Origin: Bacteroidota bacterium
Lineage (GTDB): Bacteria > Bacteroidota > Ignavibacteria > Kapaibacteriales > HRBIN21
DNA: 64,000 nt
Assembly (NCBI GenBank): GCA_030550395.1
Contig: JAUQPL010000007.1
Location: 2,283-66,282 of the forward strand
Direction: 5' to 3'
In this document: positions 26,489 through 32,601 of the stretch, in pieces
How the letters are laid out: each line of letters begins with the position of its first letter
Position numbering within the stretch: position 1 is the stretch's first letter
Notes under the pieces: generated by a model
Databases searched by the model: none
What the model was told of the DNA's origin: nothing
What the model saw: the letters and a program-made list of their open reading frames with translations, nothing else
Position numbers and translations under genes: made by a program

Positions 26489-27672
26489 ATCGGCGTCTGA
26501 CGCGGGTAGGCGAGCAGGGGTTTTTCCGCTTTTCGCGCGTGGTCGCCTTCGGGAGCGTTTTTCTCGGGAGTATGGCGTTGACGTTATCCTTGGCGATTTT
26601 GGAGGGATTTCAGCGGACCTTGTATGAGCAGGCGTTGCGTTTCACATGGCATGTACAGGTGCGAATGTTCGGGGGGCGGATGTTTGCCTACGACGGTGTC
26701 GTGCAGCGTTTAAAGCAGTGGTTTCCTGGCGCAATTGTAGCGGCAGTACGGGAGCGAGAAGCTTTGCTGCGCGGGAAAGGGGGGATAGAGGGAGTGCTCC
26801 TACGAGCACTGACAATTCCACCGGAGCGAAGTCCAGTAATGCTCCAGGCCGTAGAAGGGCGGTGTGGCTTTGCGTCCGACACGGCAGCCGAGCTTTTGCT
26901 TGGGCAAGCGCTGGCGCGCAAATTAGGCGCGCAGGTAGGAGATACGCTGATAGTCGTGACAGCAAGTGGAGAAGGGCTGCAGCCGGTGTTTCAGCGTTTC
27001 CGTGTTGCCGGTGTTTACCGTAGTGGGCTTATGCGATATGAGGAGCTCTACGTTTACCTTCCCTTCGCCCGGGCAGGGACTCTCTTGCGGGTGCCGGAAT
27101 TTGCGGCAACGGGGGTGGACATATTGCTCCCGGGAAGCCAGATAGAGGAGCTGCGTTCTGCCGCGGCGAGGGCAGAGCGAGAACTGGGCTTCCCCTTCTA
27201 TGCCTTGAGCCTGTATGAGCTTCATCAACCGATTTTCGCCTGGATTGAGCTCCAGCGAGTTCCAATCCCTTTGGTGTTGGGGTTAATGAGTCTGGTGGCG
27301 GTCTTCAACGTATTCACGTTCTTAGTGCTCCTGGTGGTGGAGCGAACCTCCAGTTTGGCGATCTTGCAAGTGTTGGGTATGGCGGGGAAGTGGCTCCGGG
27401 CATTCCTCCTTTGGCAGGGGATTCGCTTGAGCTTGTGGGCCGCAGTGGCAGGGTGTGTGGTCTCCTTGATCTTCGCTGTGCTCCAGACGCGCTTTGGCAT
27501 CATCCGCTTACAGGGAGCACTCTACTATGTGGATACTCTGCCGGTGGCATTTGTGTGGTGGCACCCTATTGTCGTCATAGCTGTTGCCGTGCTGCTTGCC
27601 GTGGGGGCAAGTGTGCTTCCTACAGTCTTGGTGCGCCGGTTACCGGTGACAGCACTTCTGCATTTTCGGTAG
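26446..27672 (+). CDS. FtsX/LolC-like ABC transporter permease
   Basis: About 408 residues. One transmembrane helix near the N-terminus (VVAFGSVFLGSMALTLSLAIL) is followed by a large periplasmic MacB-like domain of about 220 residues and three C-terminal helices (VLGLMSLVAVFNVFTFLVLLVV and two more). This is the LolC/LolE layout: lipoprotein release from the inner membrane with a LolD ATPase. No ATPase is adjacent. ATG 26446 overlaps the preceding gene by 43 bp; the longer track start at 26344 is not membrane-like. Substrate assignment to lipoproteins is by family resemblance only. Confidence 0.78.
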   Translation: MGAGAGLGGLFRLLDRRLTRVGEQGFFRFSRVVAFGSVFLGSMALTLSLAILEGFQRTLYEQALRFTWHVQVRMFGGRMFAYDGVVQRLKQWFPGAIVAAVREREALLRGKGGIEGVLLRALTIPPERSPVMLQAVEGRCGFASDTAAELLLGQALARKLGAQVGDTLIVVTASGEGLQPVFQRFRVAGVYRSGLMRYEELYVYLPFARAGTLLRVPEFAATGVDILLPGSQIEELRSAAARAERELGFPFYALSLYELHQPIFAWIELQRVPIPLVLGLMSLVAVFNVFTFLVLLVVERTSSLAILQVLGMAGKWLRAFLLWQGIRLSLWAAVAGCVVSLIFAVLQTRFGIIRLQGALYYVDTLPVAFVWWHPIVVIAVAVLLAVGASVLPTVLVRRLPVTALLHFR

Positions 27673-27677
27673 GGGGT

Positions 27678-27704
27678 TCAAGATTTCGCTCCACGTGCCG
27701 ATAC
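27678..27704 (+). promoter_or_regulatory. Sigma-28 (FliA)-type promoter of the flagellar operon
   Basis: A -35-like TCAA at 27678-27681, then exactly 15 bp, then GCCGATAC at 27697-27704. The enterobacterial sigma-28 consensus is TAAA-N15-GCCGATAA, so ten of the twelve bases match with the canonical spacing. Transcription would start near 27711, giving a leader of about 65 nt before the first flagellar gene. Confidence 0.6.
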
Positions 27705-27727
27705 TCTTTACCGCCACGCTGCGGGAA

Positions 27728-27744
27728 GGGAAGGATACCTTCCC
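27728..27744 (+). promoter_or_regulatory. Perfect inverted repeat in the flagellar leader
   Basis: GGGAAGG-ATA-CCTTCCC, a 7-bp perfect palindrome with a 3-base centre, lies between the sigma-28-like promoter and the first flagellar gene. It could be an operator or an RNA hairpin in the 5' leader. No T-run follows it, so a simple intrinsic terminator is unlikely. Confidence 0.5.
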
Positions 27745-27777
27745 GGAGGAGATGTCGGACCCGTTGGAAGCAGCAGG

Positions 27778-28554
27778 ATGCTGCAGGCGCTCTATACCGC
27801 TGCACTGGGTATGATGCCGCGGCTGACGCGGCTGGAGGTTACAGCCAATAACATTGCGAACCTTTCCACCCCCGGTTATAAGCGTGAGGCGCTCTTCCAG
27901 CGAGCACTGATTGAGGCCCGACAGAACCTCTTCCACGTACCCGGCGATGTTGAAGCCGCTGATGTGCCCATCACGAGCCTGACGGACTACCGTCCTGGTC
28001 CGCTCCAAAAGACTGGAAATCCTCTGGATGTCGCCCTGGACGGACCGGGCTTTTTCGTGGTGGAGGATGCATTGGGACGGCTCTTTGTTACGCGCCGTGG
28101 ACGTTTCCTACTGAGAGCCGATGGAATGGTGGTCACGCCAGAGGGAAAGCGGGTGCTTGGAGTTGGAGGGATGCCTTTACAACTCTTGCAGGAACGGGTA
28201 TCTCCGGGGGAAGGCTCTTGGACATCGGAGGCATTGGTAGAAATCTCCGCCGAAGGGGAGTTGCGCTATCGTTCGCTTCCGGTTGGGACGTTCTGGATCG
28301 TGACGGTTCCGCCTGAAATGCTACAACGCGCCGATGGAGTGGAATTCGCTCTCCTTCCCAATGCATCCTTGCAGAGCCTATCGCCGGGCGAGTATCGGCT
28401 TATGCAGGGCTATGTAGAAAGCGCCAATGTGAATGCAGTAGAGGAGCTGATACAGCTGATAGAGCTACAGCGCCAATTTGAGATAGGGCAGCGAGTTATC
28501 CGCGTCAGCGACAGCACGTTGGAACGGAGCATCGGTATTGCACGGATGGTCTAA
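27778..28554 (+). CDS. flgF: Flagellar basal-body rod protein FlgF-like
   Basis: 258 residues. The N-terminal rod motif ANNIANLSTPGYKREAL and the C-terminal helix motif QGYVESANVNAVEELIQLIELQRQFE define the axial rod/hook family. Internal segments include GNPLDVALDGPGFFVVE. It comes first in the flg operon and is followed by a clear FlgG, so it is the proximal rod FlgF. No signal peptide is expected because rod proteins use the flagellar export apparatus. Confidence 0.85.
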   Translation: MLQALYTAALGMMPRLTRLEVTANNIANLSTPGYKREALFQRALIEARQNLFHVPGDVEAADVPITSLTDYRPGPLQKTGNPLDVALDGPGFFVVEDALGRLFVTRRGRFLLRADGMVVTPEGKRVLGVGGMPLQLLQERVSPGEGSWTSEALVEISAEGELRYRSLPVGTFWIVTVPPEMLQRADGVEFALLPNASLQSLSPGEYRLMQGYVESANVNAVEELIQLIELQRQFEIGQRVIRVSDSTLERSIGIARMV

Positions 28555-28572: not shown

Positions 28573-29364
28573 ATGGAAAAAACCCTGCGCACAGCGGCAA
28601 CGGGTTTAGCAGCCCAGCAGCGTTTCATAGAGATCATCGCCCATAACCTGGCCAATGTCAATACGACAGCATATAAACGCGTGCGCCCGGAGTTCCAGGA
28701 CCTTCTCTACGAGCGGCTCCGTACCATGGGGACCAGTTCAGTCCAGGGGGTGGTGGAGAGTCCCCATGAGGTGCAGATTGGGAGCGGGACAGAATTGGTT
28801 GCGACAAGGCGTGCTTTTTCTCAGGGCGATATCCAACCAACGAATAACCCGTTGGACCTGGCCATCAATGGTGATGGGTTCTTTGTGGTGCGCCGTCCCG
28901 ATGGTATGCTGCTATACACTCGGGATGGTTCGTTCCGGCTGGACCGAGAAGGACGAGTTGTGACCAGCCATGGTTATCTGTTGGAGCCTGGGATTATCGT
29001 TCCCGAGGATACCACAGAACTGCGCATTAGCCGAGATGGTGTTGTAAGCATCCTGACCAGCGATGGAACAACGGAGCAGGTGGTAGGGCAGTTGCAACTG
29101 GCTCGGTTTGTCAACCCTGCAGGGCTACGCGCTGTGGGGGAGAATCTCTACGCCGAAACTGTTGCCTCTGGACCTCCGATTCTGGAAACCCCTGGGCAGG
29201 GAACAGCTGGGGAGATTTTGCAGGCACATTTGGAGAGCTCCAACGTGGAATTGGTGGAGGAGATGGTCAACCTCATTATGGCGCAACGTGCCTATGAACT
29301 GAATGCAAAGTCCATCCGTACGGCTGACGAGATCTTGCAGACAGCAGTCAATCTGAAGTCGTAG
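28573..29364 (+). CDS. flgG: Flagellar distal rod protein FlgG
   Basis: 263 residues, the usual FlgG length. N-terminal AHNLANVNTTAYKRVRPEFQDLLYERLRT, with the typical FlgG segment after the Asn-rich motif, then FSQGDIQPTNNPLDLAINGDGFF. The C-terminus ends SSNVELVEEMVNLIMAQRAYELNAKSIRTAD, matching FlgG closely. It forms the distal rod that passes through the P and L rings. It lies 18 bp after flgF with a Shine-Dalgarno-like AGGTAGAGAG. Confidence 0.95.
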   Translation: MEKTLRTAATGLAAQQRFIEIIAHNLANVNTTAYKRVRPEFQDLLYERLRTMGTSSVQGVVESPHEVQIGSGTELVATRRAFSQGDIQPTNNPLDLAINGDGFFVVRRPDGMLLYTRDGSFRLDREGRVVTSHGYLLEPGIIVPEDTTELRISRDGVVSILTSDGTTEQVVGQLQLARFVNPAGLRAVGENLYAETVASGPPILETPGQGTAGEILQAHLESSNVELVEEMVNLIMAQRAYELNAKSIRTADEILQTAVNLKS

Positions 29365-29386: not shown

Positions 29387-30076
29387 ATGTGTGGAATCCG
29401 GGTAACACTGACATTGCTCCTGGTAGGGCAGTCGGCATTGGGGCAAGGGATGGTGGAGAGAATAGCTCAGACGGCGAGGGAGTGCGTCCAGAAATGGGTG
29501 GGGGAGTTACCGGTAGATATCCGCTGGTTCTCCGAACCTCGGCATCTCCAGCCGTATATGGGCGTACCAGAGCTGCGGTGTTTGAGCGATAGTACACTCC
29601 TACAACAGGGTCGGTTTGTCTTTGAGGTGTGGTCCCAGGGGCAGTGGGCGGGGCGGTTTGTTCTTCCAGCGGTTGTCCGAGTGTATGCACCGGAGGTCCG
29701 TCTACGAAAGGCGGTGGAGGCAGGGGAGCCAGTAACGGAAGTGGAGCAGACTTTCCGTTGGATGACTCTGGCGGAGTATTGGCAGCGGGTGCCACCGGAG
29801 GAAGTTGCTTACCTTCGGGCACGGCGCCGGTTAGCGGCGGGACAGGTGTTGCTGCGGACGGACTGCCTGCCGCGGGCGGGCGTACGGCGCGGAGAGCTTG
29901 TCACGTTGTATGCGCAGGTGGGAGCCGTCCAGGTGCGGACGATAGCCCAAGCACTGGAGGATGGGGCACCGGGAAGTTGGATCCGTGTCCGCCGTGAGGG
30001 AGCCGGGCGGATCCTGCGTGCCCGTGTGGTGGATGAGAAGACAGTGGTGGTTGAACAAGGGCTATTGCAGCCATGA
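29387..30076 (+). CDS. flgA: Flagellar P-ring assembly chaperone FlgA
   Basis: 229 residues. A Sec signal peptide (TLTLLLVGQSALGQG) and a C-terminal SAF-like domain (RRLAAGQVLLRTDCLP, RRGELVTLYAQVGAVQV, DGAPGSWIRVRR) fit FlgA, the periplasmic chaperone that helps FlgI form the P ring. Its place between flgG and flgH supports the call. Sequence outside the SAF region is divergent. GGTAGAGGGGAGC precedes the ATG, and the stop overlaps the flgH ATG by 4 bp. Confidence 0.82.
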   Translation: MCGIRVTLTLLLVGQSALGQGMVERIAQTARECVQKWVGELPVDIRWFSEPRHLQPYMGVPELRCLSDSTLLQQGRFVFEVWSQGQWAGRFVLPAVVRVYAPEVRLRKAVEAGEPVTEVEQTFRWMTLAEYWQRVPPEEVAYLRARRRLAAGQVLLRTDCLPRAGVRRGELVTLYAQVGAVQVRTIAQALEDGAPGSWIRVRREGAGRILRARVVDEKTVVVEQGLLQP

Positions 30077-30639
30077 TGAGGGCCCTGATTGTAAGCCTTC
30101 CCGTGCTCAGCACACTGTTATGGGCGCAGTGGGGCGTGTATGGTGCTCGCTCGTTGACCTCGGACCTGAGGGCTGCAGCGGTTGGGGATGTGGTGACCAT
30201 TCTCGTGGTGGAGGATGCGCAAGCAAGCAATGTCGCGCAGACGGGAGAGCAACGCCGGAGTGAGTTACACCTGGGCATCCAGGGTTCATACAACCGCTTC
30301 GGTTTCCAGGCTGGAGGACGATTCCAAAGTGGCTCTGACATCCGTGGACGAGGGGAAACGTCACGGATGGAACGGATTCGCGCACGACTGACGGCGCAGA
30401 TTGTGGCAATTGATACGCTGGGCAATCTGGTCGTGGAAGGACAGCGCACAACGCGTATCAACGGTGAGGAGCAAACGATTCGGATCCGCGGGAAGGTGCG
30501 TTCGCTGGATATCTTGCCGGACAACACCGTGCCCTCGTATGCCTTAGCGGAGCTTGTGCTCATCTACGAAGGTGAGGGGACAGTCTCGCAAGCACAGGAA
30601 CCCGGTCTGATTGTCCGCCTGTTACGCTTGTTGTTCTAA
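30073..30639 (+). CDS. flgH: Flagellar L-ring protein FlgH, without lipobox
   Basis: 188 residues. The FlgH core is recognisable: SLTSDLRAAAVGDVVTILVVE near the N-terminus, ETSRMERIRARLTAQIVAI in the middle and GNLVVEGQRTTRINGEEQTIRI with VRSLDILPDNTV near the end. It should form the outer-membrane L ring. The signal region (LIVSLPVLSTLLWAQWG) contains no Cys, and the whole protein lacks one, so it cannot be an N-terminally lipidated protein like the enterobacterial FlgH. It is also about 40 residues shorter. Confidence 0.88.
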   Translation: MMRALIVSLPVLSTLLWAQWGVYGARSLTSDLRAAAVGDVVTILVVEDAQASNVAQTGEQRRSELHLGIQGSYNRFGFQAGGRFQSGSDIRGRGETSRMERIRARLTAQIVAIDTLGNLVVEGQRTTRINGEEQTIRIRGKVRSLDILPDNTVPSYALAELVLIYEGEGTVSQAQEPGLIVRLLRLLF

Positions 30640-30652
30640 TTGGGAGGCAGCA

Positions 30653-31741
30653 ATGCGGTGGCTTGTTGGACTGGCAGTCAGTGTGGCAATCCTCTGGGCA
30701 GCTCGGCTCAAGGATATCGCTACCATTGAGGGTGCCCAAGGGATTCCTTTGGTCGGCTATGGGTTGGTGACGGGGCTCAATCAGACGGGGGATTCGCCTC
30801 GGGCAATCTTTACGGTGCAGTCGGTGGCGAATCTGCTCCGGCGCTTCGGCGTCAACGTTGTCCCGCAAGCTGTGCGCACACGGAATGTTGCAGCAGTGAT
30901 AGTAACAGCCACCCTTCCGGCGTTTGCCAAGCCGGGTATGCGGTTGGATGTCCAGGTCTCCTCGCTTGGGGATGCTGAATCGCTCCAAGGGGGAATCCTC
31001 CTGCTGACCCCATTGGCAGCGCCCGATGGGACGGTTTACGCCACAGCGCAGGGAGCTGTTTCCGTCGGTGGGTACGAGTTCCGAGCGCTGGGCTCCCGCA
31101 CGCTTCGCAATTTCGTTGCCTCAGGCCGGATTCCCGGCGGAGCGATCGTAGAGCGGGAAGCCGTCTCCGATGTGCTGGTCCAGCAGCAGATCCGTATCCT
31201 GCTGCATCAACCGGATTTCACACTGGCTCAGCGGGTTGCTGAGGCAATTGGACGGCTTCCTGGATTAGCAGCAGGGGCTGTCTCCGTAGTGGATGCCGCA
31301 GCCGTTGCCGTTCGTGTCCCTGGAGGGCAGAGCCGGGACCAAATCATGAGACTCATCGCTAGCATAGAAAACGTTGAGGTTGCACCGGACCCACCTGCCC
31401 GGGTAGTCATCAACGAGCGAACTGGCACGATTGTTGTTGGTGCTCATGTGCAACTCCTGCCAGCCGTTGTGGCCCATGGCGGACTGGAGGTCCAGATCCA
31501 GCGCCAGGTGATCATTAGCCAGCCCCAGCCTTTGACATTGGGCAGGACAGAGGTGGCAGAGGTTGCAACTATTACAGTGCAACAGGAGCAGAGGAAGGCG
31601 ATGCCCTTACCAGCAGCAGCAACGGTACAGGATGTGGCAAACGCTCTGAATCTGCTAGGTGTGACCCCGCGTGACCTCATCGCTATTTTGCAGGCACTCA
31701 AAGAAGCGGGAGCATTGAACGGAGAGCTCATCATCCAGTGA
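30653..31741 (+). CDS. flgI: Flagellar P-ring protein FlgI
   Basis: About 362 residues. Signal peptide MRWLVGLAVSVAILWA, then ARLKDIATIEGAQGIPLVGYGLVTGLNQTGDS, typical of FlgI. Conserved internal segments are NVAAVIVTATLPAFAKPG and VGAHVQLLPAVVAHG. It forms the periplasmic P ring around the distal rod with FlgA as chaperone. The start at 30653 is chosen over the track's 30611 because it begins the signal peptide and follows GGGAGGCAG. The stop shares a base with the next start. Confidence 0.95.
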   Translation: MRWLVGLAVSVAILWAARLKDIATIEGAQGIPLVGYGLVTGLNQTGDSPRAIFTVQSVANLLRRFGVNVVPQAVRTRNVAAVIVTATLPAFAKPGMRLDVQVSSLGDAESLQGGILLLTPLAAPDGTVYATAQGAVSVGGYEFRALGSRTLRNFVASGRIPGGAIVEREAVSDVLVQQQIRILLHQPDFTLAQRVAEAIGRLPGLAAGAVSVVDAAAVAVRVPGGQSRDQIMRLIASIENVEVAPDPPARVVINERTGTIVVGAHVQLLPAVVAHGGLEVQIQRQVIISQPQPLTLGRTEVAEVATITVQQEQRKAMPLPAAATVQDVANALNLLGVTPRDLIAILQALKEAGALNGELIIQ

Positions 31742-32601
31742 TGTCCAGCGCGGTTCAACATCCTGTGCCCACGGATGCGACGGTGCAGAAGCCGTTGTGG
31801 GGACAAAATCCGGAACAACGGCAGCAACTGGAGTTTGTGGCCAGGGGCTTTGAGGCTCTCCTGCTCTACCAGCTTCTGCGCCCTTTGCAGCAGCCTCTCT
31901 TCGGAAGTATGAGTGACTCTGGGGAAGCTGAAGGCTTGGGGACGGGTGGACTTGACGAAGTGGTACTGTTTCCGTTTGCAGAGTTCCTCTCCTTCTTCGG
32001 GCAGGGGATTGGAATTGCACGGTGGCTTTACCGGTATTGGACCGGCGAAGAGCTGCCTGTGCACGGAAGTTCTCTATCGGCTCCCCGACGGATTCCGTCC
32101 TCGTCTCCTCAACAGGTGCCTCAAGAAAGGGAGGGTAGTCCAGCAGAGTCTGTTCCAGAAAGGGTGGTTGACCGTATTCGGGCGGCGTTGCGGCCCTATT
32201 GGGAGTGGATTCAGCAAGTAGCGGAGAAGGCGAACTTACCTTCGTCGTTGGTGGCGGCGGTCGTGTGGGTGGAGTCGGCCGGTAACCCTCAGGCGGTCTC
32301 GCCTGCGGGGGCGCAAGGACTGATGCAGCTTATGCCGCAGACGGCTCGTATGCTTGGGGTGACAGATCCGTTCGACCCCCGGCAAAACCTTGAGGCAGGA
32401 AGCCGATACTTACGGCAGCTTATGGAACGCTTTGGGGAGCTCCGGTTGGCGTTAGCCGCTTACAACGCCGGACCTGGGCGAGTGCAGCGCTACGGTGGTA
32501 TTCCACCGTTTGCCGAAACACAAACCTATGTGCGACGGGTCATAGAACTGTATCGCCACTTAGAAGCAGGGAGGGCTCCAGGGGCTCCAGCTCCGCTGTG
32601 A
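31741..32601 (+). CDS. flgJ: FlgJ-type rod-binding protein fused to SLT lytic transglycosylase
   Basis: About 286 residues. The N-terminal part (about 20-110) has the rod-binding FlgJ domain (FEALLLYQLLRPLQ then an acidic Gly-rich stretch). After a Pro/Ser linker the C-terminal 130 residues form a GH23 lytic transglycosylase: Glu in VVWVESAGNPQAVSP, GAQGLMQLMPQTARMLGV, YLRQLMERFG and LALAAYNAGPGRVQRYGG. In enterobacteria this second half is a glucosaminidase-type domain. It should open peptidoglycan for the rod. A GTG at 31738 is an alternative start. Its 3' end overlaps the convergent tnaA by 62 bp. Confidence 0.85.
   Translation: MSSAVQHPVPTDATVQKPLWGQNPEQRQQLEFVARGFEALLLYQLLRPLQQPLFGSMSDSGEAEGLGTGGLDEVVLFPFAEFLSFFGQGIGIARWLYRYWTGEELPVHGSSLSAPRRIPSSSPQQVPQEREGSPAESVPERVVDRIRAALRPYWEWIQQVAEKANLPSSLVAAVVWVESAGNPQAVSPAGAQGLMQLMPQTARMLGVTDPFDPRQNLEAGSRYLRQLMERFGELRLALAAYNAGPGRVQRYGGIPPFAETQTYVRRVIELYRHLEAGRAPGAPAPL

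Follow-up and report, generated by a model that had tools for sequence, protein, structure and literature searches.

A sigma-28-type promoter element upstream of flgF and a seemingly rewired order of flagellum building in an uncultured genus of the Candidatus Kapabacteria order

The flgF operon and the element upstream of it

The window, by which we mean the whole 64,000-nucleotide stretch of DNA analysed, carries an operon of flagellar rod and ring genes that begins with flgF (Table 1). A 105-bp intergenic gap separates flgF from the gene upstream, an FtsX/MacB-like ABC permease with its stop codon at 27670-27672. Within this gap, the plus strand at 27678-27704, read directly from the sequence, is TCAAGATTTCGCTCCACGTGCCGATAC. 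It comprises TCAA (27678-27681), 15 bases and GCCGATAC (27697-27704), and 73 bases separate the end of the -10 region from the flgF ATG at 27778. Compared with the FliA pattern (-35 TAAA(GTTT), 15-base spacing and -10 GCCGATAA), TCAA-N15-GCCGATAC matches the consensus TAAA-N15-GCCGATAA at 10 of 12 bases with exact spacing, the second and the last base being different. The original prediction had placed a match of exactly this quality immediately before the flagellar operon, and our reading of the sequence and of the gap bears out both points.

Table 1. Coordinates of features at the flgF locus (positions within the window)
Feature	Position	Strand	Remarks
Sigma-28 (FliA) type promoter, predicted	27678..27704	+	-35 TCAAGATTT, 27678-27686; -10 GCCGATAC, 27697-27704
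Expected transcription start, approximate	27711	+	From sigma-28 promoter geometry, +/- a few bases
Leader hairpin 1	27722..27745	+	CGGGAAGG(GAAGGATA)CCTTCCCG; GGA in loop; candidate CsrA site
Leader hairpin 2	27770..27784	+	GCAGC(AGGAT)GCTGC; holds the flgF start codon; candidate CsrA site (CAGGAUG)
flgF, rod protein	27778..28554	+	Pfam Flg_bbr_C, Flg_bb_rod, FlgE/F/G D1
flgG, distal rod	28573..29364	+	Pfam FlgEFG family
flgA, P-ring chaperone	29387..30076	+	Pfam ChapFlgA
flgH, L-ring	30073..30639	+	Pfam FlgH
flgI, P-ring	30611..31741	+	Pfam FlgI; true start probably slightly later
flgJ-like lytic transglycosylase	31738..32601	+	Pfam SLT domain; last gene of the operon

If the sigma-28 site were real but secondary, the rod and ring operon would owe most of its transcription to a different promoter or to read-through out of the ABC permease gene. 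Several observations argue against this: no sigma-70-like promoter was found in 27500-27900, a sequence scan of the flgF gap returned no good sigma-54-like site, the best match to TGGCAY-N5-TTGCW before flgF in the genus members tested was 8/11, and the upstream gene is non-flagellar according to Pfam. However, double control is established for flgKL and fliDST of E. coli (PMC4183435), and the FlgM checkpoint (see below) argues for some FliA-independent expression of rod and hook genes. On balance, we consider a secondary role of the site unlikely.

Conservation of the element and the predicted FliA regulon

The original prediction had proposed a search for fliA and for further copies of the motif as checks. 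The genome (G000; 1.94 Mb, 99% complete) encodes FliA at C5:55336-56022, with a score of 219 bits for TIGR02479 against a curated cut-off of 189.6. Regions 2, 3 and 4 of the protein are all present, and its nearest solved structures are FliA/WhiG sigma factor chains. RpoN is encoded as well.

The consensus match alone proves nothing, because sites matching at 10/12 number 86 genome-wide against 99 for the reversed pattern, and several lie within the 64-kb window alone. Counting consensus matches was therefore dropped as evidence, as it stays at the background level. This lack of excess is the point in favor of a chance resemblance to the FliA consensus, and by arithmetic from the genome-wide count, ~0.002 such sites are expected in the flgF gap on one strand. 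It is the comparison with relatives, not the consensus, that makes the flgF site convincing as a predicted promoter. The element precedes flgF in all five genus genomes that have the gene (G000, G001, G002, G004 and G005), with AAGATTT and the -10 GCCGATAC invariant. The -35 is TCAAGATTT in four genomes and TTAAGATTT in G005, its second base being C or T and thus off consensus in each. When the gaps of the five genomes were aligned, the promoter element and the start-codon block formed the main invariant runs while the flanks diverged. Furthermore, a matrix trained on the genus sites of other genes, with every flgF site left out, placed the flgF site first among 675,458 positions (~338 kb on both strands, about a sixth of G000, in stretches chosen around flagellar genes and matches). 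The next ranks were taken by fliK, motB, a CHASE kinase and flgN, and seven of the top eight precede flagellar genes or this kinase, which has a genus-conserved site. The conservation in five genomes, the first rank under a matrix blind to flgF, and a position that fits a leader of ~67 bases make a chance resemblance extremely improbable.

The pattern search in six genus genomes gave more matches than the reversed control in five (for example, 18 vs 7 in G000 and 11 vs 3 in G001); all showed this trend, though G003 and G004 only slightly. Together with the matrix, this agrees with the proposed enrichment of the motif upstream of other flagellar genes. FliA-type sites precede fliC in G000, G001, G004 and G005 (weaker in G002), the fliC site departing from the consensus as GCCGAATA; the flgN-flgK-flgL operon, with flgN preceded in six genomes; fliK-flgD-flgE in six genomes, with an extra mismatch in two; motB-fliW-csrA in the three copies located; and fliJ and a second motA in two each. 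We also weighed whether something other than FliA, another sigma factor or a regulator, reads the flgF element, since G000 holds further sigma-70 family proteins as weaker matches. The motif set covers the standard FliA targets, namely flagellin, hook-associated and motor genes, and the motif closely resembles mapped FliA sites of E. coli such as those of flxA (TAAAGATTT...GCCGATAG) and tsr (TAAAGTTT...GCCGAAAA) (PMC4183435), which makes another reader very improbable.

Some sites of this type precede genes of other kinds. A CHASE-PAS-HisKA kinase (L045:6784-9034) has a FliA-type promoter conserved in five genus genomes; G000 yielded no MCP signalling domain, and the kinase may be a motility sensor that works apart from classical chemotaxis. 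A conserved ORF of 93-96 residues (RRFYEELAEEGLLYAFLQEHC) is preceded by a FliA-type promoter in each of four genomes (L253, L256, L257 and L207), and a glycosyltransferase gene with a FliA-like site in G000 (L053:17329, minus strand), G001 and G004 (L249, L187) is a candidate for flagellin glycosylation. In G003, matches for FlgFG, FlgL and flagellin are missing, flgE and flgN with a FliA-type site remain, and the best FliA match ends at position 187 of 224, which suggests that the flagellum has been partly lost.

Sigma-54-like sites in relatives and in the early operons

Among named records, the closest by FlgG (87-80% identity) are Bacterium HR21 and two MAGs, one of Candidatus Kapabacteria and one of Bacteroidota. 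FlgG is present in 77 of 123 genomes of the order, so flagella are common in this group and not rare as had been supposed. In other families of the order, flgF could be placed in 22 genomes. The 420 bases upstream of flgF hold no FliA-like site of at least 10/12 in any of them, and all 22 have a sigma-54-like site (N5 spacing) upstream of it, scoring 10/11 in 16, 9/11 in five and 8/11 in one. The shuffling p values for single sites are modest (0 to 0.15, one 0.8), but the site clearly recurs at similar positions. Nine named loci, some of which are probably the same genomes as the 22, agree on the sigma-54-like flgF site, with L070 as the exception. For fliK-flgD-flgE the picture in these families is mixed: most often these genes follow on from fliJ, and in some cases a FliA-like site lies internally. 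Two Kryptonia loci match the FliA consensus at 12/12, at about -401 (L072) and -361 (L073) relative to flgF; we discounted these matches, which apparently lie inside a conserved coding frame (FADKSFEE, by our own reading).

The simplest history is probably an exchange of sigma-54 for sigma-28 at flgF in this genus, a polarity that we infer. The original prediction had set the locus against the enterobacterial scheme of sigma-70 plus FlhDC; the useful contrast is instead with the sigma-54-like flgF site of the genus's own relatives. Its claim that rod and ring genes are directly under sigma-28 appears to be right, as fliA, the motif enrichment and the conservation support it.

Within the genus, sigma-54-like sites are found at early operons. 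The only perfect (11/11) match in the G000 stretches read lies before flgB, which also has a weaker FliA-like site upstream. Sites matching at 10/11 precede fliP and flhF, the latter heading the operon that holds fliA, among about thirty 10/11 matches overall in these stretches. The flhF site recurs in G001, G002, G003 and G005 and is weaker in G004.

Leader hairpins, a proposed hierarchy and known systems

The flgF leader contains two hairpins that are predicted, as candidates, to be CsrA target sites. The known CsrA consensus is RUACARGGAUGU, with GGA mostly in a hairpin loop (PMC7652899). In the flgF leader, ANGGA/CAGGAUG lies in the loop of a hairpin close to the ribosome site, and csrA and fliW are both encoded (Pfam), in the operon that a FliA-type site precedes. 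Corresponding to hairpin 1, all five genomes have an upstream hairpin of 4-8 bp with GGA in its loop, the stem being altered in two. Hairpin 2 is also present in all five; in G004 it reads GGAGC(AGGAT)GCTCC, a double change that keeps the pairing. CsrA-type CAGGAYG sites are conserved in the leaders of flgF, fliK and fliC, the one in flgF covering the start codon, and at least one [AC]AGGA[TC]G occurs in all 15 of these leaders against a background of 0.031 per 100 bases. The folding of the flgF leader is unexceptional in three of the five genomes (z -1.1 to -1.5) and exceptional in two (-2.9 and -3.0), and the leader has no Rfam match.

An ORF resembling FlgM (L042:11838-12110, minus strand) is the last gene of the fliC-fliS-fliD-flaG-fliT operon of G000, although its PF04316 score of 21 bits is below the 25-bit cut-off. 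Such an ORF follows fliC-fliS-fliD in G000, G004 and G005, and a matching one lies near fliC in G001. Directly before it, we saw neither a FliA-type nor a sigma-54-type promoter. In the late checkpoint, described as widely conserved, FlgM stays inside the cell until completion of rod and hook, and FliA is then released (PMC7064773). A FlgM that holds FliA until the hook is complete would block rod and hook genes placed behind FliA promoters, and therefore either late FlgM feedback or an extra weak promoter would be needed. Absence of FlgM as the answer to this problem was rejected, because the ORF was found in the fliC operon.

The sequences compared show the genes, the sites and how far these are conserved, and the different sites of the relatives; FliA binding, the start site, the order of expression, FlgM feedback and CsrA binding are what we infer. 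The flgF element is very probably a working sigma-28 (FliA) promoter within an RpoN, FliA, FlgM/CsrA-FliW hierarchy. RpoN-type promoters would drive the early base, flgBC-fliE..I and fliPQR-flhBA (export gate, MS ring and proximal rod), and, through the flhF operon, FliA itself. FliA would then transcribe flgF-flgG-flgA-flgH-flgI-flgJ from the element at 27678-27704 and fliK-flgDE, providing distal rod, P and L rings and hook, as well as the hook-filament junction operon flgNKL-motA, the filament operon fliC-fliS-fliD-flaG-fliT-flgM, and motB-fliW-csrA. Because flgM comes last in the FliA-dependent filament operon and no promoter of its own was found, FliA would meet no opposition at first and be held back later by FlgM feedback. 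Translation is probably timed by CsrA acting on the GGA hairpins in the flgF, fliK and fliC leaders, with FliW relieving it. The fuller proposal, to which we give an even chance, is that the distal rod, P/L ring and hook operons, which bear CsrA-type hairpins, exchanged sigma-54 for sigma-28, with the checkpoint replaced by a FliA-first order timed by FlgM feedback and CsrA-FliW.

The usual order of flagellum building thus seems to be rewired in this uncultured genus. A genus with FliA promoters on rod, ring and hook genes could not run the late checkpoint as it normally operates. The conserved CsrA-type hairpins point to another layer that may have assumed some of the timing. The sigma-54-like relatives and the sigma-28-type genus would form a natural before-and-after pair for the rewiring of flagellar gene order. 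In the literature searched, which covered few subscription papers, no description of a FliA promoter before flgF turned up. Limberger in 1996 reportedly described a sigma-28-like promoter before early flagellar genes in the Treponema fla operon, and therefore we do not claim general priority for sigma-28 before rod genes.

The genus sites resemble the class 3 FliA promoters of E. coli (fliC, tar, tsr, motA and flgKL) in their TAAAGTTT-N11-GCCGATAA shape and spacing, and share the accepted E. coli variants TAAAGATT and GCCGAAAA. In contrast, flgBCDEFGHIJ of E. coli is FlhDC-dependent class 2, whereas flgF-J and fliK-flgDE of the genus carry a FliA-type site (PMC4183435). V. cholerae flgFGHIJ likewise has a separate promoter directly before flgF, with RpoN and FliA in one hierarchy, but that promoter is FlrBC/sigma-54-dependent, similar to the other Kapabacteria families and different from the present genus (PMC7064773). 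Campylobacter jejuni also has an RpoN/FliA hierarchy, and several of its flagellar leaders, those of flaA and flgI among them, are bound by CsrA and controlled by CsrA-FliW through GGA in stem-loops (PMC4894983); in the genus, CsrA action is a prediction. The C. jejuni flgI gene is RpoN-dependent (PMC4894983), whereas flgI of the genus lies within the operon behind the FliA-type site.
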